A stretch of 64,000 bases of DNA from Flavobacteriales bacterium (GTDB lineage Bacteria > Bacteroidota > Bacteroidia > Flavobacteriales > Schleiferiaceae): NCBI GenBank assembly GCA_017795025.1, contig CP051243.1, forward strand, positions 310,001-374,000, given 5' to 3'. Position numbers and translations under genes: made by a program. Of the stretch, positions 26,743 to 59,340 are shown in pieces. Within the stretch, counting starts at the first letter, position 1. Every line of letters begins with the position of its first letter. A model generated the notes under the pieces. It searched no databases. It saw only the letters and a list, made by a program, of their open reading frames with translations, and was not told where the DNA came from.

Positions 26743-29700
26743 TTAAGGATTAAGCTTCACCTTAAACTGCTGGACCTCTTCTGAATCCGAAACTTGTAAG
26801 AGGTAGATTCCCGCCGGTAAACCTTGCAGTGAAAGGGTCTGATTCGCTTGGTACATCGACCATTTTCGGATAAGTCTTCCGGTTTGGTCTAGGAGTTTCA
26901 CTTCACGAGGTCTAGCATCTGCCGCCTTGATATTGATGATGTCTTGAGTCGGATTAGGGTATACTTGAAGGTTCGAGATGGCTAATTCATCAATACTAAC
27001 AGGACGATAATCGGCCGGACTGCCAATATCTCCGCCGGTAGACTGGTAGGCGCCCCTTAGACCATTCGCGGCTCGGGAGCTGTAAGTACCCAGGGTATCG
27101 AATTCTAAGCTGAACCCTCGCAGTACTTGTGCAGAACTATAGGCACTGAAGGCGACCATATGGCCTTGTGAATCAAAAAGATAAAGCGCATCTCCGGAAC
27201 TGCTGAGTCCAGAAAAACCATTGAAATCTCGACCCGGAATTAGAAGGGGAAGATTGTTTCCATTTTGCTTCCAGTCTGTTAACCAGGTATTGGCAAAGGG
27301 TGCCTGCACATTAAGTACAATCAACTTTTCACCGGGCCCTAAGCTCCAGTTTTGCTGAATGGTATGTACGCCGCTTTGACCATCGCTATCATCCCAACTG
27401 TAGCCATTAAGATTAATAGATATATCACCGTAATTGTAAATTTCAAACCAATCACCGCCAATTGGAGACGGAAGGCTGGATTGAGGCATAATCTCACTGA
27501 TGCAAATGGCCGCCGTGTTAATGGGAATGAAATCACTATAAAAACGTGGGCGCAACAGATAACCTTCTGTATAGGGAAGGCTGGGATCATTTTGACTTAA
27601 AACACCTATTAAATCAAAGCTTCCGCTGATGGCATTCTGCCCATCTATGTCGGTATCGGCATCAATGAAAATAAGCAGGGTATCTGGTCCATTGGTGATT
27701 TCCATTTGAGCGGAAGAATTAAGCGCCGGCCAAAGTCCTGGATTTAAAAATCTAAAGCTATTCAAGCGTAGTACTTTGCTTTCGAGGCTATCAGCAAAGT
27801 GATTGACATTGATAGGCACGGGCTGCTGGTTTCCGATGGCTAGGAGCCGTAAACTATCGGGGATGAGGCTAAGCAATCCATTTTGTTGAGCAAGGGTACC
27901 GATAAATATCAGGCTATCGCCAATCTGTGGTTGCAGATAAGAATTAAGGTCAAGGCTGCTCGAAATATGTAAGGCATCACTACCATCTTGGATGTGGAAG
28001 TCGTATCCAACATTTCCTTTGTAGTCAATACTGTTCAAACTGCCACTTATTTTACAATAAACGCCAATGGAATCGGCGAGGCCATTTAGATTTTGACCAT
28101 TAATATCGGCAATTGTGTAATGGGGAATAGGCGGGATGTCATTATCTATAATACTGACAAAGAGCGTACTTGGACTTGAAAATTGTATGCTTCCCGAACG
28201 GGAACCAATTAGTTGGGCACTGAATTGCTCGGTGTTCTCGACAAGGGCATCATCATTTATTAGAAGGTCGAAATAAACCGTATCGCTATTGGCGGGAATA
28301 TTTAACCAAAGGGTGTCATTTTGTAGTGCAGGATTAAGGCTATAATCACCGCTAGTAATACCTGTCCCGTTGGAGAAGGTTATGGCTACCGTGTCGGCAG
28401 AGGTGTTGCTCGGGCTTAAAATAAGAGCCACCGCAGTGGTTCCTGAAGCTTCTGCCAAAACTAAGTTTGAATTTTGGAATCGTAGGCCGGGTACCGGTGG
28501 TGGACTAGGACAAGCTCCGAGTGTATCGCTGCTAAAACAACGCACAGGTACAATGGTATCTGAATTAAATAATACCTGTTTATTAAAGCCAGTTTCCCAA
28601 TTGGTGCCATTGGAGTTATGAAAGCGCGCTTTGTAGTCGAGCTGTGGTTCTGGGGCATAAATAGTGTATTCGTAAACCAAATCCCCATCCGGGTCGGTCA
28701 TAAGGTAGTTGAGGTCCAAATTGCCGTTCCAGGCATTAAAGGCACCGGCGATATCAACGGAATCTTGCAAAGGATTAAAACCATTTACATAGTTCATGTC
28801 AACCTGCAGCGTTACCCAGAAGGTGTCGATTACGGGAGTACAGGGGCCATAGGCCGTATTGCCAAAGCAACGCACGGGGAGGACACTGTCCCCATTAAAA
28901 TTCACAAAGTTATTGCTAACCTGCGGTTCCCAATTGGTCACCCCAGCAGCATGCCAACGCGCTTTGTACTCCAGCACTAGCTCCGGGAAAGGATAGGTTG
29001 CGGTATACACCAAATCCCCATCAGGATCAGTCAACTGATAAGCCGCATTGTAAGCCGCGTTCCAATTACTAAACGGACCAGCTATATCCACCAAGTCGTT
29101 AGCAGCATCAAACCCCGCTTCATTAGAGAGATCAATTTGGAAGGTAATATCAAAAGTATCGGGCAGGTTCGGACAGAAGCCTAGGGTATCACTGCCAAAA
29201 CAACGCACCCCAATAGTGGTATCAGAGAAGAAAGTCACCGACTTATCCAAGCCACCTTCCCAGTTCACTCCAGCGCCATTATGGTAACGGGCTTTATAAT
29301 CAAAACTCGAATCCGGCAAATACAAAGTAATCTCCCAAATACTATCATTGTTGGCATCCGTCAAGGCATAGGCCGCATCATACGCTCCATTCCAACCATT
29401 GAAAGTCCCCGCCACATCTATTGAATCCGTGTTCCGATTAAACCCTACTTCGTTACTCAAATCCACCTGCAGGGTCACATAAAACGAATCAATCAAACTC
29501 GGACAAGCCCCAGCGGTATCGGAACCAAAACAACGAATCGGTAGTATAGAATCATTATTGAAATTAACCGTCTGATTATTGGCCTGCGGCTCCCAATTCG
29601 TCACCCCAGCAGCATGCCAACGTGCTTTGTATTCGAGCACTGGCTCTGGGAAAGGATAAGTCGCAGTATACACCAAATCCCCATCAGGATCAGTCAACTG

Positions 29701-32700
29701 ATAAGCCCCATTGTAAGCTGCGTTCCAATTACTAAAAGGACCAGCTATATCCACCAAGTCGGTAGCAGCATCAAACCCCGCTTCATTAGAAAGATCAACC
29801 TGGAAGGTAATATCAAAAGTATCGGGTAGGTTCGGACAGAAGCCTAGCGTATCACTACCAAAACAACGCACCCCAATAGTGGTATCAGAGAAGAAAGTCA
29901 CCGACTTATCTAAGCCGCCTTCCCAGTTCACTCCAGCGCCATTATGGTAACGCGCTTTATAATCGAAGGTAGAATCCGGCAAATACAAAGTAACCTCCCA
30001 AACACTATCATTGTTAGCATCCGTCAAGGCATAGGCCGCATCATAGGCTCCGTTCCAGCCATTGAAAGTCCCCGCCACATCTATTGAATCCGTGTTCCGG
30101 TCAAAACCCACTTCGTTGGAAAGGTCGATTTGAAGCGTCACATAAAAGGAATCCACCAATGACGGACAGGCCCCAGCGGTATCACTACCAAAGCAACGCA
30201 CCGCTAAAACACTATCTCCACTAAAGTTGATAATCTGATTATTGACTTGTGGTTCCCAATTGGTCACCCCAGCAGCATGCCAACGCGCTTTGTATTCGAG
30301 TACTGGCTCCGGGAAAGGATAAGTCGCAGTATACACCAAATCCCCATCAGGATCAGTCAACTGATAAGCCCCATTGTAAGCTGCGTTCCAATTACTAAAA
30401 GGACCAGCTATATCCACCAAGTCAGCAGCAGCATCAAACCCCGCTTCATTAGAAAGATCAACCTGGAAGGTAATATCAAAAGTATCGGGTAGGTTCGGAC
30501 AGAAGCCTAGGGTATCACTACCAAAACAACGCACCCCAATAGTGGTGTCAGAGAAGAAAGTCACCGACTTATCCAAGCCCCCTTCCCAATTTACTCCAGC
30601 GCCATTATGGTAACGCGCTTTGTAATCAAAACTCGAATCCGGTAAATACAAAGTAATCTCCCAAATACTGTCATTGTTGGCATCCGTTAGGGCATAGGCC
30701 GCATCATAAGCCCCATTCCAGCCATTGAAAGTCCCCGCAACATCTATTGAATCCGTGTTCCTATCAAATCCGGCCTCCTTACTCAAATCCACCTGCAGGG
30801 TCACGTAAAACGAATCAATCAAACTAGGACAAGCCCCAGCGGTATCGGATCCAAAACAGCGAATCGGTAGTATAGAATCATTATTGAAATTAACCGTCTG
30901 ATTATTGACCTGTGGTTCCCAATTGGTCACCCCAGCTGCATGCCAACGCGCTTTGTATTCGAGTACTGGCTCCGGGAAAGGATAAGTCGCAGTATACACC
31001 AAATCCCCATCAGGATCCGTCAACTGATAGGCCGCATTGTAGGCTGCGTTCCAATTACTAAACGGACCAGCTATATCCACCAAGTCAGTAGCAGCATCAA
31101 AGCCCGCTTCATTACTTAAATCTACCTGGAAGGTAATATCAAAAGTATCGGGCAGGTTCGGACAGAAGCCTAGGGTATCACTACCAAAACAACGCACGCC
31201 TATGGTAGTATCAGAGAAGAAAGTCACGGACTTATCCAAGCCCCCTTCCCAATTCACTCCAGCGCCATTATGATAACGCGCTTTATAATCGAAACTCGAA
31301 TCCGGCAAATACAAAGTAACCTCCCAAATACTATCATTGTTGGCATCGGTCAGGGCATAGGCCGCATCATACGCCGCATTCCAGCCATTGAAGGTCCCCG
31401 CCACATCTATTGAATCCGTGTTCCGATCAAAACCCACTTCGTTGGAAAGGTCTATTTGAAGCGTCACATAAAACGAATCAATCAAACTCGGACAAGCTCC
31501 AGCGGTATCACTACCAAAGCAACGCACCGCTAAAACACTATCCCCACTAAAGTTGATAATCTGATTATTGACTTGTGGTTCCCAATTGGTCACCCCAGCA
31601 GCATGCCAACGCGCTTTGTACTCCAGCACTGGCTCCGGGAAAGGATAAGTCGCAGTATACACTAAATCCCCATCAGGATCGGTCAACTGATAAGCTGCAT
31701 TGTAAGCCGCGTTCCAATTACTAAAAGGACCAGCTATATCCACCAAGTTAGTAGCAGCATCAAACCCCGCTTCATTGGAAAGATCGATTTGGAAGGTAAT
31801 ATCAAAAGTATCGGGTAGGTTCGGACAAAGTCCTAGGGTATCACTACCAAAACAACGCACCCCAATAGTGGTGTCAGAGAAGAAAGTCACGGACTTATCT
31901 AAACCCCCTTCCCAGTTCACTCCAGCGCCATTATGGTAACGGGCTTTATAATCGAAGGTAGAATCCGGCAAATACAAAGTAATCTCCCAAATACTATCAT
32001 TGTTGGCATCGGTCAGGGCATAGGCCGCATCATACGCCGCATTCCAGCCATTGAAGGTCCCCGCCACATCTATTGAATCCGTGTTCCGATCAAAACCCAC
32101 TTCGTTGGAAAGGTCTATTTGAAGCGTCACATAAAACGAATCAATCAAACTCGGACAAGCTCCAGCGGTATCACTACCAAAGCAACGCACCGCTAAAACA
32201 CTATCCCCACTAAAGTTGATAATCTGATTATTGACTTGTGGTTCCCAATTGGTCACCCCAGCAGCATGCCAACGCGCTTTGTACTCCAGCACTGGCTCCG
32301 GGAAAGGATAAGTCGCAGTATACACTAAATCCCCATCAGGATCGGTCAACTGATAAGCTGCATTGTAAGCCGCGTTCCAATTACTAAAAGGACCAGCTAT
32401 ATCCACCAAGTTAGTAGCAGCATCAAACCCCGCTTCATTGGAAAGATCGATTTGGAAGGTAATATCAAAAGTATCGGGCAGGTTCGGACAGAAGCCTAGC
32501 GTATCACTTCCAAAACAACGCACCCCAATAGTCGTATCAGAGAAGAAAGTCACGGACTTATCCAAGCCCCCTTCCCAATTTACTCCAGATCCATTGTGGT
32601 AGCGCGCCTTATAATCGAAACTCGAATCCGGCAAATACAAGGTAATCTCCCAAATACTGTCATTGTTGGCATCGGTTAGGGCATAGGCTGCATCATACGC

Positions 32701-35700
32701 TCCATTCCAGCCATTGAAAGTCCCCGCCACATCTATTGAATCCGTGTTCCGATCAAAACCCACTTCGTTGGAAAGGTCGATTTGAAGCGTCACATAAAAC
32801 GAATCGATCAAACTCGGACATGCCCCAGCGGTATCGGATCCAAAACAGCGAATCGGAAGAATAGAATCATTATTGAAATTAACCGTCTGATTATTGACTT
32901 GTGGTTCCCAATTGGTCACCCCAGCAGCATGCCAACGCGCTTTGTACTCCAGCACTGGCTCCGGGAATGGATAAGTCGCGGTGTAGACTAAATCCCCATC
33001 AGGATCCGTCAACTGATAAGCTACATCATAAGCCGCGTTCCAGCCATTGAAGGTACCGGCAAGGTCTACTAAATCCGTGTTCCTATCAAACCCCGCTTCA
33101 TTACTTAAATCTACCTGGAAGGTAATATCAAAAGTATCGGGTAGGTTCGGACAGAAGCCTAGGGTATCACTACCAAAACAACGCACGCCTATGGTAGTAT
33201 CAGAGAAGAAAGTCACGGACTTATCCAAGCCCCCTTCCCAATTTACTCCAGCGCCATTATGGTAACGCGCTTTGTAATCAAAACTCGAATCCGGCAAGTA
33301 TAAAGTAACCTCCCAAATACTATCATTGTTGGCATCCGTCAAGGCATAGGCCGCATCATAAGCCGCATTCCAACCATTGAAAGTCCCCGCCACATCTATT
33401 GAATCCGTGTTCCGATCAAAACCCACTTCGTTGGAAAGGTCGATTTGAAGCGTCACATAAAACGAATCGATCAAACTCGGACATGCCCCAGCGGTATCGG
33501 ATCCAAAGCAACGCACCGCTAAAACACTATCCCCACTAAAGTTGATGATTTGATTATTGACCTGCGGTTCCCAATTGGTCACCCCAGCAGCATGCCAACG
33601 TGCTTTGTATTCGAGCACTGGCTCTGGGAAAGGATAAGTCGCAGTATACACCAAATCCCCATCAGGATCGGTCAACTGATACGCCGCATCATAAGCCGCA
33701 TTCCAGCCATTGAAGGTACCGGCAAGGTCTACTAAATCCGTGTTCCTATCAAACCCCGCTTCATTAGAAAGATCGATTTGGAAGGTAATATCAAAAGTAT
33801 CGGGCAGGTTCGGACAAAATCCTAGGGTATCACTACCAAAGCAACGCACCTCAATAGTGGTATCGGAGAAGAAAGTCACGGACTTATCTAAACCATCTTC
33901 CCAGTTCACTCCAGCGCCATTATGGTAACGGGCTTTATAATCGAAGGTAGAATCCGGCAAATACAAAGTAATCTCCCAAATACTGTCATTGTTGGCATCG
34001 GTTAGGGCATAGGCGGCATCATAGGCTCCATTCCAACCATTGAAAGTCCCCGCCACATCTATTGAATCCGTGTTCCGATTAAACCCTACTTCGTTGGAAA
34101 GGTCGATTTGAAGCGTCACATAAAACGAATCAATCAAACTCTGACAGGCTCCAGCGGTATCCGAACCAAAGCAACGCACCGCTAAAACACTATCTCCGCT
34201 AAAGTTGATGATTTGATTATTGACCTGTGGTTCCCAATTCGTCACCCCAGCAGCATGCCAACGCGCTTTGTACTCCAGCACCGGCTCCGGGAAAGGATAG
34301 GTCGCAGTATACACCAAATCCCCATCGGGATCCGTCAACTGATAAGCTACATCATAAGCCGCGTTCCAATTACTAAAAGGACCAGCTATATCCACCAAGT
34401 CAGTAGCAGCATCAAACCCCGCTTCATTAGAGAGATCAATTTGGAAGGTAATATCAAAAGTATCGGGCAGGTTCGGACAGAAGCCTAGCGTATCACTACC
34501 AAAGCAACGCACGCCTATAGTCGTATCAGAGAAGAAAGTCACGGACTTATCCAAGCCCCCTTCCCAGTTCACTCCGGCGCCATTATGGTAACGGGCTTTA
34601 TAATCGAAGGTGGAATCCGGTAAATACAAAGTAATCTCCCAAATACTGTCATTGTTAGCATCGGTCAAAGCATAGGCCGCATCATAGGCTCCATTCCAGC
34701 CATTGAAAGTCCCCGCCACATCTATGGAATCCGTGTTCCGATCAAAACCCACTTCGTTGGAAAGGTCGATTTGAAGCGTCACATAAAACGAATCAATCAA
34801 ACTCGGACATGCTCCAGCGGTATCGGATCCAAAACAGCGAATCGGTAGTATAGAATCATTATTGAAATTAACCGTCTGATTATTAACCTGTGGTTCCCAA
34901 TTGGTCACCCCAGCAGCATGCCAACGCGCTTTGTACTCCAGCACTGGCTCCGGGAAAGGATAGGTCGCAGTATACACTAAATCTCCATCAGGATCGGTCA
35001 ACTGATACGCCGCATCATAAGCCGCATTCCAGCCATTGAAGGTACCGGCAAGGTCTACTAAATCCGTGTTCCGATCAAACCCCGCTTCATTAGAAAGATC
35101 GATTTGGAAGGTAATATCAAAAGTATCGGGTAGGTTCGGACAGAAGCCTAGGGTATCACTGCCAAAACAACGCACCCCAATAGTGGTATCAGAGAAGAAA
35201 GTCACCGACTTATCTAAGCCGCCTTCCCAGTTCACTCCAGCGCCATTATGGTAACGCGCTTTATAATCGAAGGTGGAATCCGGCAAATACAAAGTAATCT
35301 CCCAAATACTGTCATTGTTGGCATCGGTTAGGGCATAGGCGGCATCATAGGCTCCATTCCAACCATTGAAAGTCCCCGCCACATCTATTGAATCCGTGTT
35401 CCGATTAAACCCTACTTCGTTGGAAAGGTCGATTTGAAGCGTCACAAAGAAGGAATCCACCAATGACGGACAGGCTCCAGCGGTATCCGAACCAAAACAA
35501 CGCACCGCTAAAACACTATCCCCACTAAAGTTGATGATTTGATTATTAACCTGTGGTTCCCAATTGGTCACTCCACCAGCATGCCAACGCGCTTTGTATT
35601 CGAGTACTGGCTCCGGGAATGGATAGGTAGCGGTATAGACTAAATCCCCATCGGGATCCGTCAACTGATAAGCTGCATTGTAAGCCGCGTTCCAATTACT

Positions 35701-37182
35701 AAACGGACCAGCGACATCCACCAAGTCGTTAGCAGCATCAAAACCCGCTTCATTAGAAAGATCGATTTGGAAGGTGATATCAAAAGTATCGGGCAGGTTC
35801 GGACAAAATCCTAGCGTATCACTACCAAAGCAACGCACGCCAATAGTCGTATCAGAGAAGAAAGTCACGGACTTATCTAAACCACCTTCCCAATTTACTC
35901 CAGCGCCATTATGGTAACGGGCTTTGTAATCAAAACTCGAATCCGGCAAGTATAAAGTAACCTCCCAAATACTGTCATTGTTGGCATCAGTAAGTGCATA
36001 GGCCGCATCATAAGCCCCATTCCAGCCATTGAAAGTCCCCGCAACATCTATTGAATCCGTGTTCCGATTAAACCCTACTTCGTTGCTCAAATCCACCTGC
36101 AGGGTCACATAAAACGAATCAATCAAACTAGGACAAGCCCCAGCAGTATCACTACCAAAGCAACGCACCGCTAAAACACTATCTCCACTAAAGTTGATGA
36201 TTTGATTATTGACTTGTGGTTCCCAATTGGTCACCCCAGCAGCATGCCAACGCGCTTTGTATTCGAGTACTGGCTCCGGGAATGGATAGGTAGCGGTATA
36301 GACTAAATCCCCATCGGGATCCGTCAACTGATAAGCTGCATTGTAAGCCGCGTTCCAGCCATTGAAGGTACCGGCAAGGTCTACTAAATCCGTGTTCGGA
36401 TCAAACCCCGCTTCATTGGAAAGATCAATTTGGAAGGTAATATCAAAGGTATCCGGTGGACTCGGACAAGCCCCATTAGTATCCGCATTGAAACATCGAA
36501 CTGCCAAGGTGGAGTCCTGATCAAAACTCAGCTGCTTATTCGCCCCCGTTTCCCAATTAGTTCCAGAAGAATTATGATAGCGCGCCTTATAATCCAAAGT
36601 TCCTTCCTCCATTAAGAAGGTGCCCGTATAAACCCCATCTCCGTCGGGATCGCGAAGCTGATAATTAAGGTCAAAACTTCCGACCCAAGCATTAAATGGA
36701 CCAGCGATGTCAACTGAATCAGTAGCAGCGGAAAATCCTGCCTCTGCGCTAAGGTCTATCTGGAAGCTCAAGTTGAAGCTATCAGGTGGACAAACACAAA
36801 GATTGAAGCAATACTCAAGGATGGTGTCAGAGTTAACACTCATTCCTCTGTTGCCATTTACCGCGCAGGATCCAGGGATGCTCTCATCAGAACCCCAGGA
36901 ATTGCCATTAATGAACTTAAATTCATAATTTCCATCTGGGATACTGAGGCTTATCGAATAAATATTATTTCCTAATAAGCTCAGCGGACTAATTGCCGGA
37001 TCCCAATTATTGGCAAAGCCCGCAGCCTGTTGAAAATTTCCCGCGACATGAATCCCATTAGGATTAGCGGTTTGACCACTTAAATCCAGCCTTAATTCGA
37101 CGGTGCGGTTTTGTGCATATAGGATTTGAAGGCTAGCGAATAGCCCGATCAATAGGAATCTTAGCTTCATTGGTAGGTTCAT
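26743..37182 (-). CDS. Giant T9SS-secreted protein with 25 tandem CBM/E-set-like repeats
   Basis: Predicted surface protein of about 3479 residues. Order: signal peptide (about 1-24); a divergent N-terminal CBM20/E-set-like module with GIHVAGNFQ and YEFKFING; 25 tandem repeats of 110-111 residues (134-2895), each with VAGTFNGWN or VAGPFSNWN, DYKAR(Y/W)H, NWE and a two-Cys RCFGSDT-G-CP end; a Calx-beta-like domain (about 2899-3015); an OB-fold-like region (3018-3215); a lamin-tail domain with ISEIMP and GDWFEIYN (about 3220-3390); and a type A T9SS sorting domain (3400-3479). The repeat core resembles AMPK/CBM48-type alpha-glucan-binding folds, so glycan binding is inferred. Start: ATG at 37182 is chosen because an inverted-repeat element sits against it exactly as at the GH57 gene; ATG at 37170 also gives a good signal peptide. 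Confidence 0.85.
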   Translation of the reverse strand: MNLPMKLRFLLIGLFASLQILYAQNRTVELRLDLSGQTANPNGIHVAGNFQQAAGFANNWDPAISPLSLLGNNIYSISLSIPDGNYEFKFINGNSWGSDESIPGSCAVNGNRGMSVNSDTILEYCFNLCVCPPDSFNLSFQIDLSAEAGFSAATDSVDIAGPFNAWVGSFDLNYQLRDPDGDGVYTGTFLMEEGTLDYKARYHNSSGTNWETGANKQLSFDQDSTLAVRCFNADTNGACPSPPDTFDITFQIDLSNEAGFDPNTDLVDLAGTFNGWNAAYNAAYQLTDPDGDLVYTATYPFPEPVLEYKARWHAAGVTNWEPQVNNQIINFSGDSVLAVRCFGSDTAGACPSLIDSFYVTLQVDLSNEVGFNRNTDSIDVAGTFNGWNGAYDAAYALTDANNDSIWEVTLYLPDSSFDYKARYHNGAGVNWEGGLDKSVTFFSDTTIGVRCFGSDTLGFCPNLPDTFDITFQIDLSNEAGFDAANDLVDVAGPFSNWNAAYNAAYQLTDPDGDLVYTATYPFPEPVLEYKARWHAGGVTNWEPQVNNQIINFSGDSVLAVRCFGSDTAGACPSLVDSFFVTLQIDLSNEVGFNRNTDSIDVAGTFNGWNGAYDAAYALTDANNDSIWEITLYLPDSTFDYKARYHNGAGVNWEGGLDKSVTFFSDTTIGVRCFGSDTLGFCPNLPDTFDITFQIDLSNEAGFDRNTDLVDLAGTFNGWNAAYDAAYQLTDPDGDLVYTATYPFPEPVLEYKARWHAAGVTNWEPQVNNQTVNFNNDSILPIRCFGSDTAGACPSLIDSFYVTLQIDLSNEVGFDRNTDSIDVAGTFNGWNGAYDAAYALTDANNDSIWEITLYLPDSTFDYKARYHNGAGVNWEGGLDKSVTFFSDTTIGVRCFGSDTLGFCPNLPDTFDITFQIDLSNEAGFDAATDLVDIAGPFSNWNAAYDVAYQLTDPDGDLVYTATYPFPEPVLEYKARWHAAGVTNWEPQVNNQIINFSGDSVLAVRCFGSDTAGACQSLIDSFYVTLQIDLSNEVGFNRNTDSIDVAGTFNGWNGAYDAAYALTDANNDSIWEITLYLPDSTFDYKARYHNGAGVNWEDGLDKSVTFFSDTTIEVRCFGSDTLGFCPNLPDTFDITFQIDLSNEAGFDRNTDLVDLAGTFNGWNAAYDAAYQLTDPDGDLVYTATYPFPEPVLEYKARWHAAGVTNWEPQVNNQIINFSGDSVLAVRCFGSDTAGACPSLIDSFYVTLQIDLSNEVGFDRNTDSIDVAGTFNGWNAAYDAAYALTDANNDSIWEVTLYLPDSSFDYKARYHNGAGVNWEGGLDKSVTFFSDTTIGVRCFGSDTLGFCPNLPDTFDITFQVDLSNEAGFDRNTDLVDLAGTFNGWNAAYDVAYQLTDPDGDLVYTATYPFPEPVLEYKARWHAAGVTNWEPQVNNQTVNFNNDSILPIRCFGSDTAGACPSLIDSFYVTLQIDLSNEVGFDRNTDSIDVAGTFNGWNGAYDAAYALTDANNDSIWEITLYLPDSSFDYKARYHNGSGVNWEGGLDKSVTFFSDTTIGVRCFGSDTLGFCPNLPDTFDITFQIDLSNEAGFDAATNLVDIAGPFSNWNAAYNAAYQLTDPDGDLVYTATYPFPEPVLEYKARWHAAGVTNWEPQVNNQIINFSGDSVLAVRCFGSDTAGACPSLIDSFYVTLQIDLSNEVGFDRNTDSIDVAGTFNGWNAAYDAAYALTDANNDSIWEITLYLPDSTFDYKARYHNGAGVNWEGGLDKSVTFFSDTTIGVRCFGSDTLGLCPNLPDTFDITFQIDLSNEAGFDAATNLVDIAGPFSNWNAAYNAAYQLTDPDGDLVYTATYPFPEPVLEYKARWHAAGVTNWEPQVNNQIINFSGDSVLAVRCFGSDTAGACPSLIDSFYVTLQIDLSNEVGFDRNTDSIDVAGTFNGWNAAYDAAYALTDANNDSIWEVTLYLPDSSFDYKARYHNGAGVNWEGGLDKSVTFFSDTTIGVRCFGSDTLGFCPNLPDTFDITFQVDLSNEAGFDAATDLVDIAGPFSNWNAAYNAAYQLTDPDGDLVYTATYPFPEPVLEYKARWHAAGVTNWEPQVNNQTVNFNNDSILPIRCFGSDTAGACPSLIDSFYVTLQVDLSKEAGFDRNTDSIDVAGTFNGWNGAYDAAYALTDANNDSIWEITLYLPDSSFDYKARYHNGAGVNWEGGLDKSVTFFSDTTIGVRCFGSDTLGFCPNLPDTFDITFQVDLSNEAGFDAAADLVDIAGPFSNWNAAYNGAYQLTDPDGDLVYTATYPFPEPVLEYKARWHAAGVTNWEPQVNNQIINFSGDSVLAVRCFGSDTAGACPSLVDSFYVTLQIDLSNEVGFDRNTDSIDVAGTFNGWNGAYDAAYALTDANNDSVWEVTLYLPDSTFDYKARYHNGAGVNWEGGLDKSVTFFSDTTIGVRCFGSDTLGFCPNLPDTFDITFQVDLSNEAGFDAATDLVDIAGPFSNWNAAYNGAYQLTDPDGDLVYTATYPFPEPVLEYKARWHAAGVTNWEPQANNQTVNFNNDSILPIRCFGSDTAGACPSLIDSFYVTLQVDLSNEVGFNRNTDSIDVAGTFNGWNGAYDAAYALTDANNDSIWEITLYLPDSSFDYKARYHNGAGVNWEGGLDKSVTFFSDTTIGVRCFGSDTLGFCPNLPDTFDITFQIDLSNEAGFDAANDLVDIAGPFSNWNAAYNAAYQLTDPDGDLVYTATYPFPELVLEYKARWHAAGVTNWEPQVSNNFVNFNGDSVLPVRCFGNTAYGPCTPVIDTFWVTLQVDMNYVNGFNPLQDSVDIAGAFNAWNGNLDLNYLMTDPDGDLVYEYTIYAPEPQLDYKARFHNSNGTNWETGFNKQVLFNSDTIVPVRCFSSDTLGACPSPPPVPGLRFQNSNLVLAEASGTTAVALILSPSNTSADTVAITFSNGTGITSGDYSLNPALQNDTLWLNIPANSDTVYFDLLINDDALVENTEQFSAQLIGSRSGSIQFSSPSTLFVSIIDNDIPPIPHYTIADINGQNLNGLADSIGVYCKISGSLNSIDYKGNVGYDFHIQDGSDALHISSSLDLNSYLQPQIGDSLIFIGTLAQQNGLLSLIPDSLRLLAIGNQQPVPINVNHFADSLESKVLRLNSFRFLNPGLWPALNSSAQMEITNGPDTLLIFIDADTDIDGQNAISGSFDLIGVLSQNDPSLPYTEGYLLRPRFYSDFIPINTAAICISEIMPQSSLPSPIGGDWFEIYNYGDISINLNGYSWDDSDGQSGVHTIQQNWSLGPGEKLIVLNVQAPFANTWLTDWKQNGNNLPLLIPGRDFNGFSGLSSSGDALYLFDSQGHMVAFSAYSSAQVLRGFSLEFDTLGTYSSRAANGLRGAYQSTGGDIGSPADYRPVSIDELAISNLQVYPNPTQDIINIKAADARPREVKLLDQTGRLIRKWSMYQANQTLSLQGLPAGIYLLQVSDSEEVQQFKVKLNP
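28498..36783 (-). repeat. Array of 25 coding repeats (about 330 bp), alternating A/B types with a 663-bp superunit
   Basis: Within the giant gene two repeat types alternate. Type A (110 aa) begins DSFYVTLQ and ends GFCPNLP; type B (111 aa) begins DTFDITFQ and ends GACPSLI. Together they give a 221-residue, 663-bp period. The first and last repeats are divergent hybrids; the inner 23 run B-A-B through to B. Inner copies are highly similar at DNA level. Confidence 0.92.
31321..32478. repeat. Pair of exactly identical 495-bp segments one superunit apart
   Basis: 31321-31815 and 31984-32478 are base-for-base identical by direct reading, offset by exactly 663 bp. They are bounded by single differences at 31320/31983 (C versus T) and 31816/32479 (T versus C). 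This is a mark of recent unit duplication or gene conversion inside the repeat array. Confidence 0.88.
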
Positions 37183-37204
37183 TAGTGTAAAAGGTACACT
37201 TATA
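37180..37204 (-). promoter_or_regulatory. Start-codon inverted repeat (AGTGT-N7-ACACT) of the giant gene
   Basis: On the plus strand the sequence reads CAT T AGTGT-N7-ACACTTAT. The CAT is the complement of the chosen ATG. On the mRNA an 8-of-9 bp hairpin would include the first two bases of AUG. The same layout occurs at 59294-59318 before the GH57 gene, with 18 of 25 positions identical. It may be an operator for a shared regulator or an RNA hairpin controlling translation or stability. Confidence 0.55.
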
Positions 37205-37207
37205 GCC

Positions 37208-37215
37208 CAAATGTA
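37208..37215 (-). promoter_or_regulatory. -7 promoter box of the giant repeat-protein gene
   Basis: On the minus strand TACATTTG matches TAnnTTTG exactly. The expected start of transcription is at about 37202, so the leader would consist almost entirely of the inverted repeat at 37180-37204. No clear -33 TTG is seen at the right distance. Confidence 0.5.
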
Positions 37216-40183: not shown

Positions 40184-43100
40184 ATGAGACAACTACTATT
40201 TTCTATTTTCCTATCGATGGTCTGGCTCTCCTCTGCAGGGCAGGGGACCGTCTCCACAACAGGGCAAATGAACCCGAACAACGGTTCAAACGGTATTACC
40301 CTACGTGTGGAAGCCTCCTCTCCAATTGAGATTACTGGGCTTACAAATGTTTTTACTACAGGAGCAACGAGTGCTACAGTTTGGGTGCGTCAAGGTGGCG
40401 TGGCGAACGGTGGATCTCCAAACATTTCTACTGCAAATGGCTGGACTCAAGTGGTAATTAATGCACCTTTAACTGGTGCCAACAGTACTAATGATATCAA
40501 CATCCCATTTGGGGGTGTTAAAATTCCAGTGCCTGCGAATGGTGCGGTTGGGATTTTCATTGAAGGTACTTCAGGAACAAGTCGTTACCAGACGGGTACG
40601 GCGAGTGATCAGGTGATTTACACCGACAACACCATGACAATTAATATCGCCGACTCTGTGGCTTATGGTGGTGCAACTCCAGTTCCTGTAAACAACCCTC
40701 GTCGTTTCGTAGGTACGGTAACATACGCTTTAGCGGTTACTGGAAACTGTACTCCTTTTACTGGCTTTACAATTGACAGTATCAGTGGAACCGCGGCTAA
40801 AGTAAACTGGACGCCAGGTACTTCTAATACTGGATACAAGTTAGAGTATGGCACGGCTGGATTTACACTAGGCACGGGCACAGTAGTTACCGGTACTTAC
40901 CCAACAACACCAGCAACTCCGCCCGTAATCTTAACGGGTTTATCTCCTAACACTAATTATGACCTTTATTTAGAGGAATATTGTAATAGTGGTGCTGATA
41001 CGGTTGGATTCCCAACGCCACAAACTTTTACTACCACTAAGTTATGTGGTGCTCCAAGTGGGTTTAGCGAATCTAACTTAACCTCAAATACCGTTGATGT
41101 CAACTGGACCCAAGCAGGTTCTTACACCGAAGCATGGCTAATGTGGGGTCCATCGGGAACTACCCCTGGAAGTACAGGTTGGACCGTGGATACAATTACC
41201 GCTCCAACCATGATGTCGACCATCACGGGCTTGGCATCTTCTACAGCGTATGACATTTATTTAGCCACTAATTGTGGTGCTGTAAATGGCGTATCAGATA
41301 CGGTAGGTCCTCTTCAAATTGTAACGCCAATTCAAGGACCACAAGGATTAAACTGTACTACGGGTCAACCAGGTATTTTATTTGCTGATGACTTTGAAAC
41401 TCAAGGTGGTTGGACTGGTGATATCGGTACTGGAGCAAGTAACTGGAACTACAACACTGGTGGTACTAGTTCTACTGCTACTGGCCCTACCGGCGCTCAT
41501 TCAGGTACACAGTACATTTACACAGAAACTTCAGGTGCACCAACCGGTGCTAATATTGAAGCGATTTCTCCAAGAATCGATTTATCATCTTCCTTTAACA
41601 GTGCCGAGCTTTCTTTCTGGCTGCATGCTTATGGAGCCAGTATTGATACGATTAAGGTGCAGGTAGGCCCTAACGCTACCGGTCCTTGGAACACCGTATT
41701 TACACAAGTTGGACAATTACAAACAGCTAATGCAGATCCTTGGCAGAATGTAGGTATTAACCTTGATAATTATGTAGGTTCAGCCATTCACATTCGCTTT
41801 TTAGTAATTCACGGTACTAGCTTTAATGGTGATGTGGCTATTGATTTGGTAGAGGTGAACTCTTGCCAGACTTGTCCTTTCCCAGGAGCTCCAAACCTAA
41901 CATTTGTGAATAGCGATTCTGCTTCTTTCACTTGGACTGGTGCTGGTACTTCTTATGATATAAACTGGGGTCCAGCAGGATTTACGCAAGGCTCTGCCGC
42001 TTCTAATTTTGATAGTACAGCAACCACTAGTTTTGGTTTAGGTGGTTTATCTGGAAACACAGCGTACGACATCTATGTACGTAATGATTGTTCCGATAGT
42101 GCTAACGGCGTAAGTGGTTGGGTTGGTCCATTGACCTTCGTTACCCTTTGTAACCCACTAACAGCTCCATACAGCAATAACTTTGATATGGACTCTATCG
42201 ATCAGGCCCCAATCTGTTGGGATAATGCGCTGATTGGTGGGACTTCAGCTACTTTACCAAATGCAGATGTAGAGGTACCTAGTACGCTTTATCCTCCTAT
42301 TTCATCACCGAATGTGGTTCGTTTCTACAACTATAACACCGACACGGCTTGGTTAATTACGCCACAGTTTAGTGATCTTACGGCTGGCGATAAGCGGATT
42401 AAGTTCCATGGGATGACCACTACTACCGCTACAGGTAATGATTTAATCATTGGTACGATTGCCTCTCCTGGCGACCGCGCAAGCTTTGTACCGATTGATA
42501 CCATTACAGTGGCTAGAAACTATGCCCAGTTTGTTGTGGAAATTACGACCGCTAATGGATACAATGGAACACACGAATTTATTGTGTTGGCTCACGCTGG
42601 TCCTACTTTCCGTACCTATTACATCGACGACTTTGAGTATGAAATGATTCCTGCTTGTAACCCTCCTTTGGTGAGCACTTTAGGCGTTAATTATGTTACC
42701 GCTACAGATGCTGAAGTAACTTGGGGTTCAGGTTCTGATGGTGATACCACTTTCGTTGAGTGGGGTCTTCCAGGCTTTACACCAGGTTCTACCAATTTAG
42801 GTCGTATTGCTGTAGCTGGAGGTCAGGATAGCGCCTTAATTACTGGACTATCTGCACAAACAGATTACGAATTCTATATTCAAGATTCTTGTTATGGAAA
42901 CGGCACTAGCCCTTATGTTGGTCCTGTGTCCTTCCGTACGGCTTGTCTAATTTCTAGTCCAGCTTTATTGCCATTAAATGATGGTTTCGAGGGATATACT
43001 CAAGGTCCTGACTTTACTACTACTACCTTCTTATGTAACCCATCGTACTACTGGACATTTGATCCTTCTAGTACTAATGGTCGTGGTAGATTACAGGCTA

Positions 43101-46100
43101 GTGCTAATCACCCTAACAATGGTACCCAGGCCTTCACATTTGATCAAACCTCATTTTTGAATCCTGCGGAGACCAATTACCTAACGATGACGGTGAACTT
43201 AAGTAGCTATACTACTGCTGGTGGGATCAACTTAAGCTTCTACATCATGGATCATACAAACCAAATCCATCCCGATAATAAGGTATGGGTGCGTGGTAGT
43301 GCTGCTGATCCTTGGATTGAGATTATTGACTTGAACCCTTATTTCAATACCAGTACATTGAATTCTGGAGTTTACGATTCTATCCAAGAAGTAGACATTA
43401 TGGCGCCAATTACCGCTGCTGGTCAGTCGATTGGTGCTAATACCCAAATTCGTTGGGGTCAGAATGATTTAAGCTCAAATGGTTCTACGACTTGTTGTTA
43501 TGGTTATACCATCGACGATGTGAGTTTAGAGGCTGTATCTTGTCCGAACCCAAGTGGTTTAGCAGTAAACAACCTCTTAGATACCACTGCTACTATGACT
43601 TGGGCTAACAGTTCTTCTGCAACTAATTATGAATTCTGGTTTGGTCCACAAGGATTCTACCAAGGAACGACTACTACAACTGGTAATAGGTTCTTTACAA
43701 CTTCAAGTAGTATCTTAGTTGATACCTTAAGTCCTACCACTTGTTACGAATTCTTAGTACGAAGTGTATGTTCTAGTGGTGATACTAGTAACTGGGTAGG
43801 ACCAATCCAGTACTGTACTACTTGTCCAGTAAGCTACTCTATGCCTTACTTCACCAACTTTGAGATTAACACTCCAGGGCTTGCCAGTGGTACTCCTCCG
43901 GGATGGGCTAACTGTTGGACACAACAATCAGCCTCAGGCGCAACGGTGCGTTGGGAAGCTGAAGATGCAAGTGGTGCCAATGAGAACTCCTTAAATACCG
44001 GTCCATTTACCGATGCAACTTTAGCTCCGGCTTCTGGTGGTATTTATATGTACTTAGAGACTTCTACTTCAGGATCATACGCTGATTTAGTATCTCCTGG
44101 TATTAATCTGAGTAATGCCGTGAATCCACAGTTAGAGTTCTCTTACCATATGTATGGTGCTACCATCAATCAGTTAGAGATCTTAGCTGAAAACGTAAGT
44201 ACCGGAACTATTACTTCATTAGATACTATTGTTGGTCAGCAACAAACAGCAGGTTCCGATCCTTGGAACACGCATGTAACTAATGTATCAAGCTTAACGG
44301 CTGGTTCTTACCGCTTCATCTTCCGTGGATATCGTGGTACTTCATTTACTGGTGATATCTCTATCGATGATGTATGGGTAATGGAAGCACCTACTTGTCC
44401 TCGTCCTGCGGGATTAACCCAAGACAGTGCTAACTTGAATACCATTACCGCTAGCTGGACCTCAAATGGTACTGGTACGAGCTGGGCTATTGAGTACGGT
44501 CCGGTAGGATTTACTCCTGGAACCGGCACCACTGTAGTTGCTACAAGCAATCCTTACACTATTACAGGTTTAAGTTCGGCTACAGCTTATGACGTTTATG
44601 TAAGTGAGATTTGTGGTCCTGCCGATACTAGTATAGCGATAGGTCCGATTGTTATGAACACTACATTATGTTTGGCTAGTGATCAATGTTGGACTCCAAT
44701 AGACCTAGAAGATACCTTCGGTGATGGTTGGAACGGCGCTACCTTAGATGTGATCCAAAATGGTGTTACCGTAGCAACCTTAGGTTCTAACTTTACTACC
44801 GGTAACTTATATCAAGACTCCGTATTACTATGTAACAACCTAACTACTGTTTTTGTACTGTCAAATGCAGGGGGATGGCCGTCGGAAATTGGTATTACTG
44901 TAAATACTCCATGGGGAGCACAGGCTGGTCAGTACGTGGCAAACCCAAGTACTGCCCTAGGTGATACTTTGGTGGCTATTACCGCCCAATGTACACCACC
45001 TACTTGTCCTCAACCTTCTAACTTGGTGGTAAATAGTACTACTGGTACTACTGCTAACGTAGGTTGGACTGCTGGTGGTTCAGGTACTTCTTGGGAAGTT
45101 GAATACGGTACTGGGGCCTTCTTACCTGGCGGTGGTACTCGTGTAATTGCAACTACCAATCCGTACACCATCACTGGTTTGAGTGGATCTACAAACTATA
45201 ATTTCTATGTAAGAGAGATTTGTAGTCCAGGTGATACTTCTGTATGGGCTGGTCCATTAGGGTTCACAACTGCTTGTGTTACCGCGATGGCACCTTACTT
45301 CACCGACTTTGAGAACATTCCAATTGGAATTGGTACTGGTACTCCTTCTTCTTGGAACAACTGTTGGACTGCAATCCAGACTTCAGGAAGTACCGTACGT
45401 TGGGAGTCAGAGGATGCCACTGGTGCAAACGAGAACTCCTTAAACACCGGTCCATTTACCGATGCGAGTTTACACCCAGCTTCTGGTGGTACTTATATGT
45501 ATATCGAGACTTCTACTTCAGGTACAGGTCCTGCTGAATTAACTTCACCAGTTATTGACTTCAGCAGCCTTACTACTCCTGAATTGAAGTTCCACTACCA
45601 CATGTTTGGAGCAACCATCAATAAGCTTGTTATTCAAGCGGTTGATGCTAACGGATCTCGTATTGCCCTAGATAGCTTGGTAGGACAGCAGCAAACTGCT
45701 CAGTCTGATAGCTTCTATGTGCATACTATTGACCTAAGCATGTTACCACAAACCACTTATGCCTTCGTATTCCAAGGTTTCCGTGGTACTTCATTTACCG
45801 GTGATATTTCTATCGACGATGTAAGTGTTGATGAGCAAGGTAGTTCAGGTCCATCTCCATGTCCAATGCCAACCAATGCGATGGCAACTAGCAATGTGGG
45901 TTGTGATAGTGTTGAGGTAGACTGGATGTCGAACACTGGTGGATCTATTATCCAATATGGTCCTGCAGGATTTACTCCAGGTACAGGTACCTTCACCGGT
46001 ATTGTAACTGCACCATACACCATCTTCGGATTAACCCCAGGTACTGCCTATGATGTATGGGTTGCTGATACCTGTGGTGGTGACACCAGTGCTTATGCAC

Positions 46101-46645: not shown

Positions 46646-46666
46646 TCACGGTTATTGATAAAAATG

Positions 46667-46697
46667 AAACCCCGGCCATTTGGTCGGGGTTTTTTTA
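46667..46697 (+). terminator. Rho-independent terminator after giant protein copy 1
   Basis: Ten-pair stem AACCCCGGCC / GGTCGGGGTT (one G-U pair) with an ATTT loop, followed by a run of seven T. It ends transcription 22 bases after the stop codon, so copy 2 must have its own promoter. Confidence 0.88.
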
Positions 46698-46760
46698 TTC
46701 CCTGATTTCTAGTATCTTGAAGCAGTCTACTACTACTATTGTTCAACCTTATTCACTGCT

Positions 46761-56608: not shown

Positions 56609-59296
56609 TTAGTGTTTTACAAAACGCAGCTCTCCAGAGCTATTGGTTTCGGTGCCCTGTAACTTAATGATATAGTTGCCATTTGGCAAGTCTTCTAAGT
56701 GTAAGGTAGTTTGACCTCGCTGCACGGTGCTGCGATATACTTCGACTCCCGCACTGTTGTAGATATACAGCTCATAGATTGGGTCTTGAACGCTCATCAC
56801 CTTTAATTGCAAGATATCGTCGACAGGGTTAGGAAAAATTTCAAATTCAACTTCGGGCTGCTGCCATTCTTCTAATTGAACATTCCCACTTAAGCCAATA
56901 GGGATATGATAATCTTGACCATTGTTATTATCCCAGGTATTATCGGCATAGTGGATTACAAAATTCACTTCACTAGGTTCCTGACTAGCATTATTGAAGG
57001 GTCCAATTTGCAAACTGAGCGTACCATTGTTAGGGCCATTAAAAGGGCTTTCAATAGCGGGGCCGCTACCGTTAAATAGACTAGAGCCAGGTGGGTAATA
57101 GGCGGCTATGGGGCTGGTCCAACGACTACCATTTTCATTCACCCCCCAATGTAATTGGCCTCCCTGACTCTGATTGGTAACCGTGATGGTGATGGTATCA
57201 TTTTTTTGCGGCCATTGAGGGGACCAACTTAGATTGGGATTATTGTGACCATAATTCCCAGTTCCGGGGTTACTGCCTCCTACATAAACATGCTGGATAG
57301 GGGTTTTACTCACATTGCCATTTACGTCGGTAACTTCAACGTAGTAGTCTACTAGGGTATCACTTAGGCCCGTGATTTCGGCCCAGTACAAATTGGCAAT
57401 ATGATCTGGTAGGATGAAGAAGTCAATGTCCGGATTATTAGTCACATTAGTTTTTGGGAAGGCCCTACTGCTCATGGTAATGCTTTGCCAATTTCCAACC
57501 GATGGTCCTCCTGCATAAGTTTCATTGTCATTATTACTTAAGGGATTGTCACCATCGTTGTCTAATCGGTATTTAAGTACAGCCGACTGGACCCCTTTAA
57601 CATCATAGGCAAAGGTCCAAACGTGAAAGTCGGAGGAGTTTTGCACTTGCTGGTAACCATAGATAGGCCCGTAGCCCGTTCCACCAGGATTGTAGGGAAA
57701 GCGCTGGGGAATAAACACATTTGGAGCGGTATTGTCGGTATTGGGATGTTGGGCAATAAGGCTATCGGCATAAGCGGAAGCGATATTACAGGCTAAGGTT
57801 TGCTTTACTTCCATATCTAAAGAGGCGCCATAATACATATAGCCACTAGTGAAGGCAGGAAGTAAAAAATGCCAGGCCTTTTCCGCTAAACTGGAATTGG
57901 CGTTGGGAGCCACCACATCAGCCGTATTTAAACTCGACGAGCTGAGGTCCTCGGCCATTTGAACGTGGTTTTCATTAGCCACTAAAACCGCCCAATTTCG
58001 AGCATCCTCTGTCCAGCCATTCGGATCAAACCGATAGTTGGAGGTATACATCGGCCACAGCCAGTTTATAAATTGCGGATGCCCCCAATCATTAGCCGCA
58101 TTAAACCAAGAACCGTCTTCTACCTTAACTACATCACTGGCCGCTACCGGATGATCATCTAAGAAATCTTGGATGGTAGTAGGTACATAACCCTGATTGT
58201 CCATGGCGTTTGCCAAGCCGGGAACGGAGTTATTATAGTAATCAAAACCGCCACCCCAAGCATTATCGCCATCATGGGCGAAAAGAACTATTGAGGGCTT
58301 ATTTGGATCATCGTAGGGATCAATATTGTTGTCGATATCGCCAGTTCCCATCAGGCTAAAGCCATTTTGATAGCTTAAAAGGTCGGCCATAGGGACTACG
58401 GTAATAAGGTATTCGGTTCCTGTGTTTGGGTCTACATACTTGGCCTTATGGGCTTGATAGCAATAAGGAGCGGCAAAGGCACCGCCGCGACCATCGATTT
58501 GTCCATTCCACCAATTGCTGCCATTGGTAGGCACTTTATCAGCTTGATTGGGAGGTGAAATATTACAACCTGAGGTTCCGTAATTGATGGGGTAGTCGTT
58601 TAAGGTGCGGGCCAAATGCGAATTGGCAATGATGGTCCATTCAAAGCCTTCATCCTTGAGCACTTTAATAATGCGTTCCGAAAAAGAACATTCGGCGGGC
58701 CAGTAACCCTTAGAATAGGAGGGGTTGCTGCCAAAAACCTGACCGTAACGGTATTTATGAGTTTTAATCTGCCAGCTTAAGCAAGCGTCGGAAATTAAAG
58801 GTGATAAAGCATGGTGATAGGTAAACCCGGTAAGGTCCATGCGTGGATTTCCACCGCTTGTAGTCCAACCTCTGGCAGTGGTAAAATGGCTATTCCAAGT
58901 GTTGGAATAACCCCATTGACTGGCCGCTGCCAAGCTGGCGATGTTATCCATCAAGCAACCGGAGTAATTCACTTGCGCTCCTCCTTCTGGATGAGAGTTA
59001 AGGGATTGCACGGCATCCTTCGTGCGATACTGGTAAACGGCTACACGGTCGGCCTTGCTAAAAATATCTTGTAGGTTGTTTAAGGGGTGGGCTAGGCCAT
59101 CAGGGTAGTTATTGCCACCATTATTTTTTAAATCCTGTGATTCCTTCACAAATTGAATGCGATTGGGATTTTGAGCGCTACGCTCTGGCCAGTAAATCGG
59201 TTGCTGTAAATGCCAGAGGTAAGTCATGTGTACCTGAGCAGAAAGAAAAGGACTAGAAAAAACCACTAAAAGGCTGAGGTAGAATAACTTTTTCAT
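56609..59296 (-). CDS. Secreted glycoside hydrolase family 57 enzyme with CBM25-like module and T9SS sorting domain
   Basis: Predicted extracellular alpha-glucan-active enzyme of 895 residues. Signal peptide 1-20. The GH57 (beta/alpha)7 barrel shows HLQQPIYWP (H29), the nucleophile motif GYWPAECSF with E202 and AHDGDNAWGG with D342/D344 as candidate acid/base. After the catalytic part, about 690-815 resembles a starch-binding CBM25/53 (LHWGVNENGSRW and VNFVIHYADNTWDNN). It ends with a type A T9SS sorting domain (FEIFPNPVDD to the end). GH57 enzymes act on starch or glycogen as amylases or glucanotransferases; the exact reaction is not determined. The ATG lies in an inverted-repeat element shared with the giant repeat-protein gene. 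Confidence 0.85.
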   Translation of the reverse strand: MKKLFYLSLLVVFSSPFLSAQVHMTYLWHLQQPIYWPERSAQNPNRIQFVKESQDLKNNGGNNYPDGLAHPLNNLQDIFSKADRVAVYQYRTKDAVQSLNSHPEGGAQVNYSGCLMDNIASLAAASQWGYSNTWNSHFTTARGWTTSGGNPRMDLTGFTYHHALSPLISDACLSWQIKTHKYRYGQVFGSNPSYSKGYWPAECSFSERIIKVLKDEGFEWTIIANSHLARTLNDYPINYGTSGCNISPPNQADKVPTNGSNWWNGQIDGRGGAFAAPYCYQAHKAKYVDPNTGTEYLITVVPMADLLSYQNGFSLMGTGDIDNNIDPYDDPNKPSIVLFAHDGDNAWGGGFDYYNNSVPGLANAMDNQGYVPTTIQDFLDDHPVAASDVVKVEDGSWFNAANDWGHPQFINWLWPMYTSNYRFDPNGWTEDARNWAVLVANENHVQMAEDLSSSSLNTADVVAPNANSSLAEKAWHFLLPAFTSGYMYYGASLDMEVKQTLACNIASAYADSLIAQHPNTDNTAPNVFIPQRFPYNPGGTGYGPIYGYQQVQNSSDFHVWTFAYDVKGVQSAVLKYRLDNDGDNPLSNNDNETYAGGPSVGNWQSITMSSRAFPKTNVTNNPDIDFFILPDHIANLYWAEITGLSDTLVDYYVEVTDVNGNVSKTPIQHVYVGGSNPGTGNYGHNNPNLSWSPQWPQKNDTITITVTNQSQGGQLHWGVNENGSRWTSPIAAYYPPGSSLFNGSGPAIESPFNGPNNGTLSLQIGPFNNASQEPSEVNFVIHYADNTWDNNNGQDYHIPIGLSGNVQLEEWQQPEVEFEIFPNPVDDILQLKVMSVQDPIYELYIYNSAGVEVYRSTVQRGQTTLHLEDLPNGNYIIKLQGTETNSSGELRFVKH

Positions 59297-59340
59297 AAGT
59301 GTCTATTTTACACTTATGCAATTTATGAATATTATTGCAT
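59294..59340 (-). promoter_or_regulatory. Start-codon hairpin/operator of the GH57 gene with a second overlapping inverted repeat
   Basis: Perfect 9-bp inverted repeat: CATAAGTGT (59294-59302), 7-base loop, ACACTTATG (59310-59318). CAT at 59294-59296 is the start codon complement, so in mRNA the AUG is the last part of a stem. A second perfect inverted repeat, ATGCAAT (59316-59322) and ATTGCAT (59334-59340), shares three bases with the first, so the two stems cannot both form fully. The same core occurs at 37180-37204. Confidence 0.6.

Follow-up and report, generated by a model that had tools for sequence, protein, structure and literature searches.

In a 64,000-nucleotide (nt) stretch of the genome of a Flavobacteriales bacterium of the Schleiferiaceae (contig CP051243.1, positions 310,001 to 374,000; referred to here as the window), two similar palindromes lie in the leaders of two genes for secreted proteins. 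Sequence comparisons make it very likely that both are DNA operators of a single regulator of the NrtR family (Nudix plus winged helix), here named R1, which is encoded ~2 Mb away. The 25-base stretches at 37180-37204 (CATTAGTGTAAAAGGTACACTTATA) and 59294-59318 (CATAAGTGTCTATTTTACACTTATG), read directly from the window, are identical at 18 of 25 positions, confirming the match on which the original prediction was built. Their common element is a 23-bp palindrome, ATWAGTGT-N7-ACACTTAT. The genes carry a carbohydrate-binding-module (CBM) repeat protein and an enzyme of glycoside hydrolase (GH) family 57, respectively, both ending in a sorting domain of the type IX secretion system (T9SS).

Operator 1: 37181..37203, no strand assigned, ATTAGTGT-N7-ACACTTAT, in the leader of the CBM-repeat gene, predicted site of R1
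Operator 2: 59295..59317, no strand assigned, perfect ATAAGTGT-N7-ACACTTAT, in the leader of the GH57 gene and touching its ATG
-7 promoter box: 37208..37215, minus strand, TACATTTG, TAnnTTTG type, beginning 23 nt upstream of the centre of operator 1
CBM-repeat gene: 26743..37170, minus strand, secreted protein of 3475 amino acids (aa) with ~25 CBM-like repeats, a weak Calx-beta match, an LTD domain and a T9SS tail
GH57 gene: 56609..59296, minus strand, secreted enzyme of 895 aa with an immunoglobulin (Ig)-like domain of the alpha-glucan-water-dikinase (GWD) type and a T9SS tail
R1: 2420387-2421085 of contig C1 of the same genome (G000:C1), NrtR-family regulator of 233 aa

Specificity of the sites and their co-occurrence with R1

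To judge the two palindromes, we compared them with what the window and the genome contain by chance. A loose scan of the window, allowing three mismatches, returned 19 matches where 14.6 were expected, indicating no enrichment; with at most one mismatch, only the two palindromes remained. Across the 3.44-Mb genome the core AGTGT-N7-ACACT occurred exactly 6 times (~3.8 expected from base composition) and with at most one mismatch 52 times, as against 32 for a reversed control pattern. Thus, the bare core is only modestly enriched in the genome and, together with the flat window scan, this makes the similarity by itself weak proof.

The strength of the case comes from an independent matrix test. 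The matrix was built from 19 distinct sites upstream of R1 orthologs, taken from 19 of 23 loci outside the genus, with duplicate sites merged; the seven same-genus loci (L070-L076) were left out and no site came from the genome under study. In the window, the position 59295 scored 27.6 and ranked first, 37181 followed with 27.3, and no further site exceeded 11.3. In second-order Markov sequence (20 Mb), a score of 18 was reached 0.003 times per 64 kb. Genome-wide scoring with the matrix covered 50 of the 52 one-mismatch sites.

We then asked whether the site accompanies the regulator. Of 59 genomes, our own included, 35 have an R1 ortholog (E<=1e-60), and 27 of these contain the exact pattern AGTGTA-N5-TACACT, compared to 2 of the 24 that lack an ortholog (Fisher 1.4e-7, a value that is too small because the genomes share ancestry). 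The reversed control pattern was found in 9/35 and 6/24 genomes, respectively. Within the family the exact site occurred in 24 of 28 genomes with R1 and in none of 8 without. A wider draw of 148 genomes contained a close R1 (E<=1e-60) in only two, G000 and G100, both with sites; here the exact site was present in 22/148 genomes and the control pattern, counted manually, in 28/148. Outside the R1 lineage the pattern is thus no commoner than chance. We further surveyed 58 stretches around sites in 20 of the 28 relatives that have the exact site (G007, G011, G020, G025, G029, G040, G056 and G032 were left out, and the sites of our own genome were handled separately). Of 69 exact sites, 66 were intergenic or near the start of an open reading frame (75 nt trimmed), compared to a background of 15.2%. 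Within this scope, which applies a check proposed with the original prediction, exact sites in the relatives thus lie mainly between genes or at gene starts.

Regulator R1 and its relatives

The trail to R1 was provided by many stronger genomic sites in two clusters. One (C1:2417450-2436851) comprises a SusC/SusD locus, GH13 enzymes, GH65, beta-phosphoglucomutase, pfkA and GAPDH; the other (C1:163892-171498) comprises GH31, GlgB, a putative maltokinase and GlgE. The R1 gene sits between SusC and pfkA, beside the SusC/SusD starch-type locus. R1 matched the Pfam families NrtR_WHD (PF21906, 1.5e-25) and AraR_C (PF19368, 1.1e-10), both above cut-off, as well as the Nudix domain (PF00293, 4.1e-06; 27.3 bits against a cut-off of 21.1). 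At 26 of 30 loci, R1 is preceded by an exact core no more than 250 nt away.

The closest PDB entry by sequence was 5bs6 (E 1.3e-33), the L-arabinose repressor BtAraR of B. thetaiotaomicron (BT0354; PDB 5bs6, 5dd4, 5ddg, 5deq), which likewise combines a Nudix domain with a winged helix. In the crystal of BtAraR with DNA, GTGT is defined by the protein contacts, and 7 bp separate GTGT from ACAC in the duplex (PMC4666351), the same spacing as in the window sites. All six contact residues of BtAraR within D178-K184 (D178, K179, R180, N181, R183 and K184) are identical in R1 by alignment. Note that the residue numbering was inferred as paper number equals chain number minus 3. The recognition helix DKRNFRK was conserved in 30 of 30 R1 orthologs examined, and in a tree that takes in four rows of the paralog R3 (see below) the R1 orthologs formed one group apart from BtAraR with 100/100 support.

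Despite the shared GTGT-N7-ACAC operator, R1 differs from BtAraR in the genes linked to its sites, which belong to alpha-glucan and central carbon metabolism and not to arabinose. In the arabinose pocket R34 is replaced by Gln, F36 by Met, G48 by Asp and F49 by Leu, while F129 and H131 are kept; the equivalent of R86 is ambiguous because of an insertion, the Nudix domain of R1 having ~15 extra residues. The residue set of an AraR ortholog (R34, R86, H131 and the hydrophobic pocket) is thus not preserved in R1, nor is the linkage to arabinose genes, the neighbours being SusC/D, GH13, pfkA, GAPDH and GH65. When the alignment is read by eye against the Nudix signature given in PMC4666351, the catalytic motif of R1 appears impaired: it lacks the first and last Gly, the Glu of RE and, of the EE pair, the second Glu.

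R1 also shares the family fold with NrtR of Shewanella and others, the ADP-ribose-responsive repressor of NAD genes (NF050029, E 1.6e-34; PDB 3gz5, 1.5e-16). However, it reached only 119.5 bits with the NrtR equivalog model NF050029, short of the cut-off of 400, and the recognised genes at its sites are those of sugar and central carbon metabolism. One regulator acting on both glycolytic and gluconeogenic genes has precedents in Cra (FruR) of enterobacteria and in CggR-type proteins, which belong to protein families unrelated to R1. AraR controls SusC/D and hydrolase genes jointly with cytoplasmic sugar genes (PMC4666351), an arrangement that R1 is predicted to share. XylR (BT0791), a predicted xylose regulator of Bacteroides, is another sugar-type NrtR protein, compared here by its description only (PMC3878776). 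SusR of Bacteroides controls a SusC/SusD starch system, as R1 is predicted to do, but is a membrane-bound activator that uses direct-repeat sites (PMC3878776).

Three NrtR-type proteins were found in our genome, R1 and two paralogs:

R2: G000:C1:2853869-2854624 (L037), in a laminarin-like cluster with GH16, GH30, a sugar transporter and a CBM48/T9SS protein
R3: G000:C1:2593162-2593863 (L034), helix DKRNFRR, in a phenylacetate-degradation cluster with PaaC, PaaD, a PaaG-like protein and 3-oxoadipyl-CoA thiolase

The helix of R2 reads DKANFRK or DKGNFRK in 15 of 15 sequences, with Ala or Gly at the position of the intercalating Arg180 of AraR. Seven of 14 R2 loci had a core with at most one mismatch within 250 nt (one of them exact), compared to 11% of random 250-nt stretches. 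A one-mismatch core also lies immediately upstream of R3 at C1:2593878, and in relatives an exact GTGT-N7-ACAC was present near the frame start in 4 of 6 R3-type loci (L144, L145, L146 and L149; not L147 and L148).

Genes and promoters at the sites

Comparison with annotated genes of our own genome identified pfkA, R1, SusC, GAPDH, GH31, a small CBM48 protein, GH13 proteins, pckA, MFS transporters and CBM/T9SS proteins beside the sites of the relatives. The GAPDH label is loose, since 4 of 6 GAPDH rows were only 31-40% identical to our own GAPDH. In our genome sites were also present at pyk and pdhA. The earlier proposal of a surface alpha-glucan system holds in so far as alpha-glucan genes lie at the sites; the set is wider, however, and includes glycolytic and gluconeogenic genes.

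We next analyzed the position of the operator relative to TAnnTTTG, which we take to be the consensus of the Bacteroidota -7 box. At pfkA the box starts 8 nt from the operator centre (17 of 21 sites), at SusC 23-26 nt (14 of 15 sites), at a T9SS protein 38 nt (3/3) and at pckA 62-64 nt (2/2). These counts reflect conservation and not separate events, since the promoters of orthologs are not independent of one another. For the repeat gene, the offset of 23 nt from the box to the centre was found at all three orthologous sites, and operator 1 is predicted to lie at or just past the transcription start. The geometry at pfkA, SusC and the repeat gene fits steric repression, while the position at pckA, with two sites behind it, would suit an activator. 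As a separate observation, the T9SS protein with the constant promoter distance in three genomes (L030, G000:C1:1578716-1580929) had no other Pfam domain that we found.

The repeat protein contains 25 repeats by motif count, of the Pfam CBM53/AMPK1_CBM type, in agreement with the 25 CBM-like repeats first reported; its T9SS tail, like that of GH57, is PF18962, as had been claimed. The repeats are spaced ~110 aa apart. The open frame of the ortholog in G005 is shorter (2375 aa, compared to 3505 aa here), so repeat number seems variable. Orthologs in G001 and G005 both keep the palindrome and lack an ATG equivalent to that at 37182. In each of them the start lies 22 nt from the centre of the palindrome, a distance that matches the ATG at 37170 in our gene. 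Because the orthologs hold this distance and lack the other ATG, the gene probably starts at 37170 and not at 37182, and the contact of the palindrome with an ATG is here probably accidental. The core also recurs, with one mismatch, at several CBM/T9SS loci that are more distant. Note that two adjacent giant proteins of secreted appearance (2153 and 2192 aa) are encoded at 40184-53339 of the window; with N- and C-termini that are similar by eye, they are apparently tandem paralogs.

At the GH57 gene, the ATG at 59296 does touch operator 2. Thus, of the statement that the palindromes sit exactly at the start codons, the part concerning GH57 stands, whereas that concerning the repeat gene does not. 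The CBM25-like module once ascribed to GH57 was not recovered (no CBM25 at E 1e-3); the protein instead contains the alpha-glucan-water-dikinase-type Ig-like domain PF23166 (Pfam). In the 59 genomes the only full-length match was the gene itself, others aligning with the C-terminal part alone, and 49 relatives were found in further genomes, mostly of Bacteroidota. A search of the stretches around these relatives for the helix motif DK[RAG]NFR[KR] gave no match. Given the lack of a full-length match in the 58 other genomes and the rarity of the site in relatives elsewhere (see below), GH57 looks like an acquired gene that would afterwards have been placed under the local regulator.

Alternative explanations and proposed role of R1

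The assignment to R1 supports the idea of a shared operator put forward in the original prediction: both sites fit a matrix built independently from R1 promoters, and the same site recurs at SusC, GH13, GH31, GlgE and CBM/T9SS genes. A number of observations weigh against it. Besides the shared ancestry of the genomes, the E-value cut for R1 was chosen after the table had been seen, 8 of 35 R1-positive genomes lack the exact site and 2 of 24 R1-negative ones have it. Four of 30 R1 loci have no exact core upstream, and in its wing R1 has His and Lys in place of the K204 and R205 found in BtAraR. Among 125 gene-side rows, which include the far-side genes of divergent promoters, 21 matched nothing in the reference set. 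The GH57 gene has no perfect TAnnTTTG box. Among the 46 GH57 relatives for which over 150 nt of upstream DNA was available, only 2 have an exact core there, at other distances and with matrix scores of 17.9 and 13.1. The outcome that was to speak against the original prediction, orthologs lacking the element, is thus split: both repeat-gene orthologs keep it, and few GH57 relatives have it. Finally, the helix of R3 is nearly that of R1, with similar sites, and our genome as well as 5 of 6 relatives from the same genus have a one-mismatch core (xTGT-N7-ACAC) 71-75 nt upstream of R2. These cores would be bound either by R1 or, as related sites, by R2 itself, and cross-binding of R2 or R3 to R1 sites is possible.

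That R3 or R2 reads the two sites, alone or jointly with R1, would accord with the R3 helix, with the exact cores at R3-type loci and with the excess of cores upstream of R2. We consider this unlikely: the site-linked genes are those of alpha-glucan and central carbon metabolism, not of phenylacetate or beta-glucan, R2 lacks the Arg180 equivalent, and G024 and G033, in which R1 was the only match of the protein search, nevertheless keep the SusC and pfkA sites. A regulator of the Crp, LacI or SusR type is extremely improbable. Although such proteins control starch and sugar genes in Bacteroides (PMC3878776), and no search of the genomes was aimed at them, the site tracks R1 over genomes and matches the AraR crystal operator (PMC4666351). 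The same low probability applies to a chance likeness of two AT-rich palindromes, for which the small genomic excess of the 10-base core might speak; it is countered by matrix scores of 27 where 18 is already rare, and by the conservation of operator 1 in two orthologs.

The original prediction had also offered a shared mRNA hairpin at the start codon, that is, a thermosensor, riboswitch-like element or translational operator co-regulating both genes. Each palindrome could fold into a stem of up to 8-9 bp closed by a 7-nt loop, and each is located in a predicted leader near the AUG. However, across 77 distinct sites the outer paired positions were complementary about as often as expected by chance (39 versus 37.2 and 45 versus 39.1) and the innermost positions less often (16 versus 26.0 and 19 versus 32.4), while GTGT and ACAC were nearly fixed. 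The pfkA and SusC sites lie upstream of the -7 box and hence outside those mRNAs, and the contact with the AUG is not conserved in the repeat gene. We therefore rejected the hairpin, which is very unlikely in view of site position and the lack of clear covariation between the arms.

In the mechanism that we propose for R1, a dimer would bind GTGT-N7-ACAC so that each GTGT half is contacted by one recognition helix, as in Bacteroides AraR. With operator 1 over the predicted transcription start and operator 2 over the leader as far as the ATG, bound R1 should prevent both genes from being transcribed. A sugar ligand from the alpha-glucan pathway, presumably of the glucose series or a phosphate thereof, would release R1. 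Further predicted targets of R1 are the genes for taking up and hydrolysing alpha-glucan, the GlgE/GlgB cluster, and the genes of glycolysis, gluconeogenesis and pyruvate entry.

A broader proposal is tentative, and we lean slightly against it as a whole. R1 might define a new NrtR subfamily of global carbon regulators that links glycolysis, gluconeogenesis and pyruvate entry with glycogen turnover and with the capture of external alpha-glucan by SusC/D, the CBM-repeat protein, GH57 and T9SS amylases. The position of the operator would set the direction of control, with repression at the repeat gene, pfkA and SusC, whose start or core promoter is covered, and activation at pckA, whose site is well upstream. 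Newly acquired enzymes such as GH57 would be wired in by gain of an operator. That R1 activates in this position-dependent way is no more than a guess. Sugar-responsive NrtR-family regulators have been reported for arabinose and xylose in Bacteroides (PMC4666351, PMC3878776). Among the matches listed in a search of a literature collection without most subscription papers, there was no NrtR-type regulator of alpha-glucan use or glycolysis.

In conclusion, a single protein, a single 23-bp site and a set of named promoters make up a testable system. If the assignment is correct, a conserved NrtR subfamily acting on starch and glycogen as well as central carbon metabolism would offer a candidate for the protein that controls how this lineage uses alpha-glucan.

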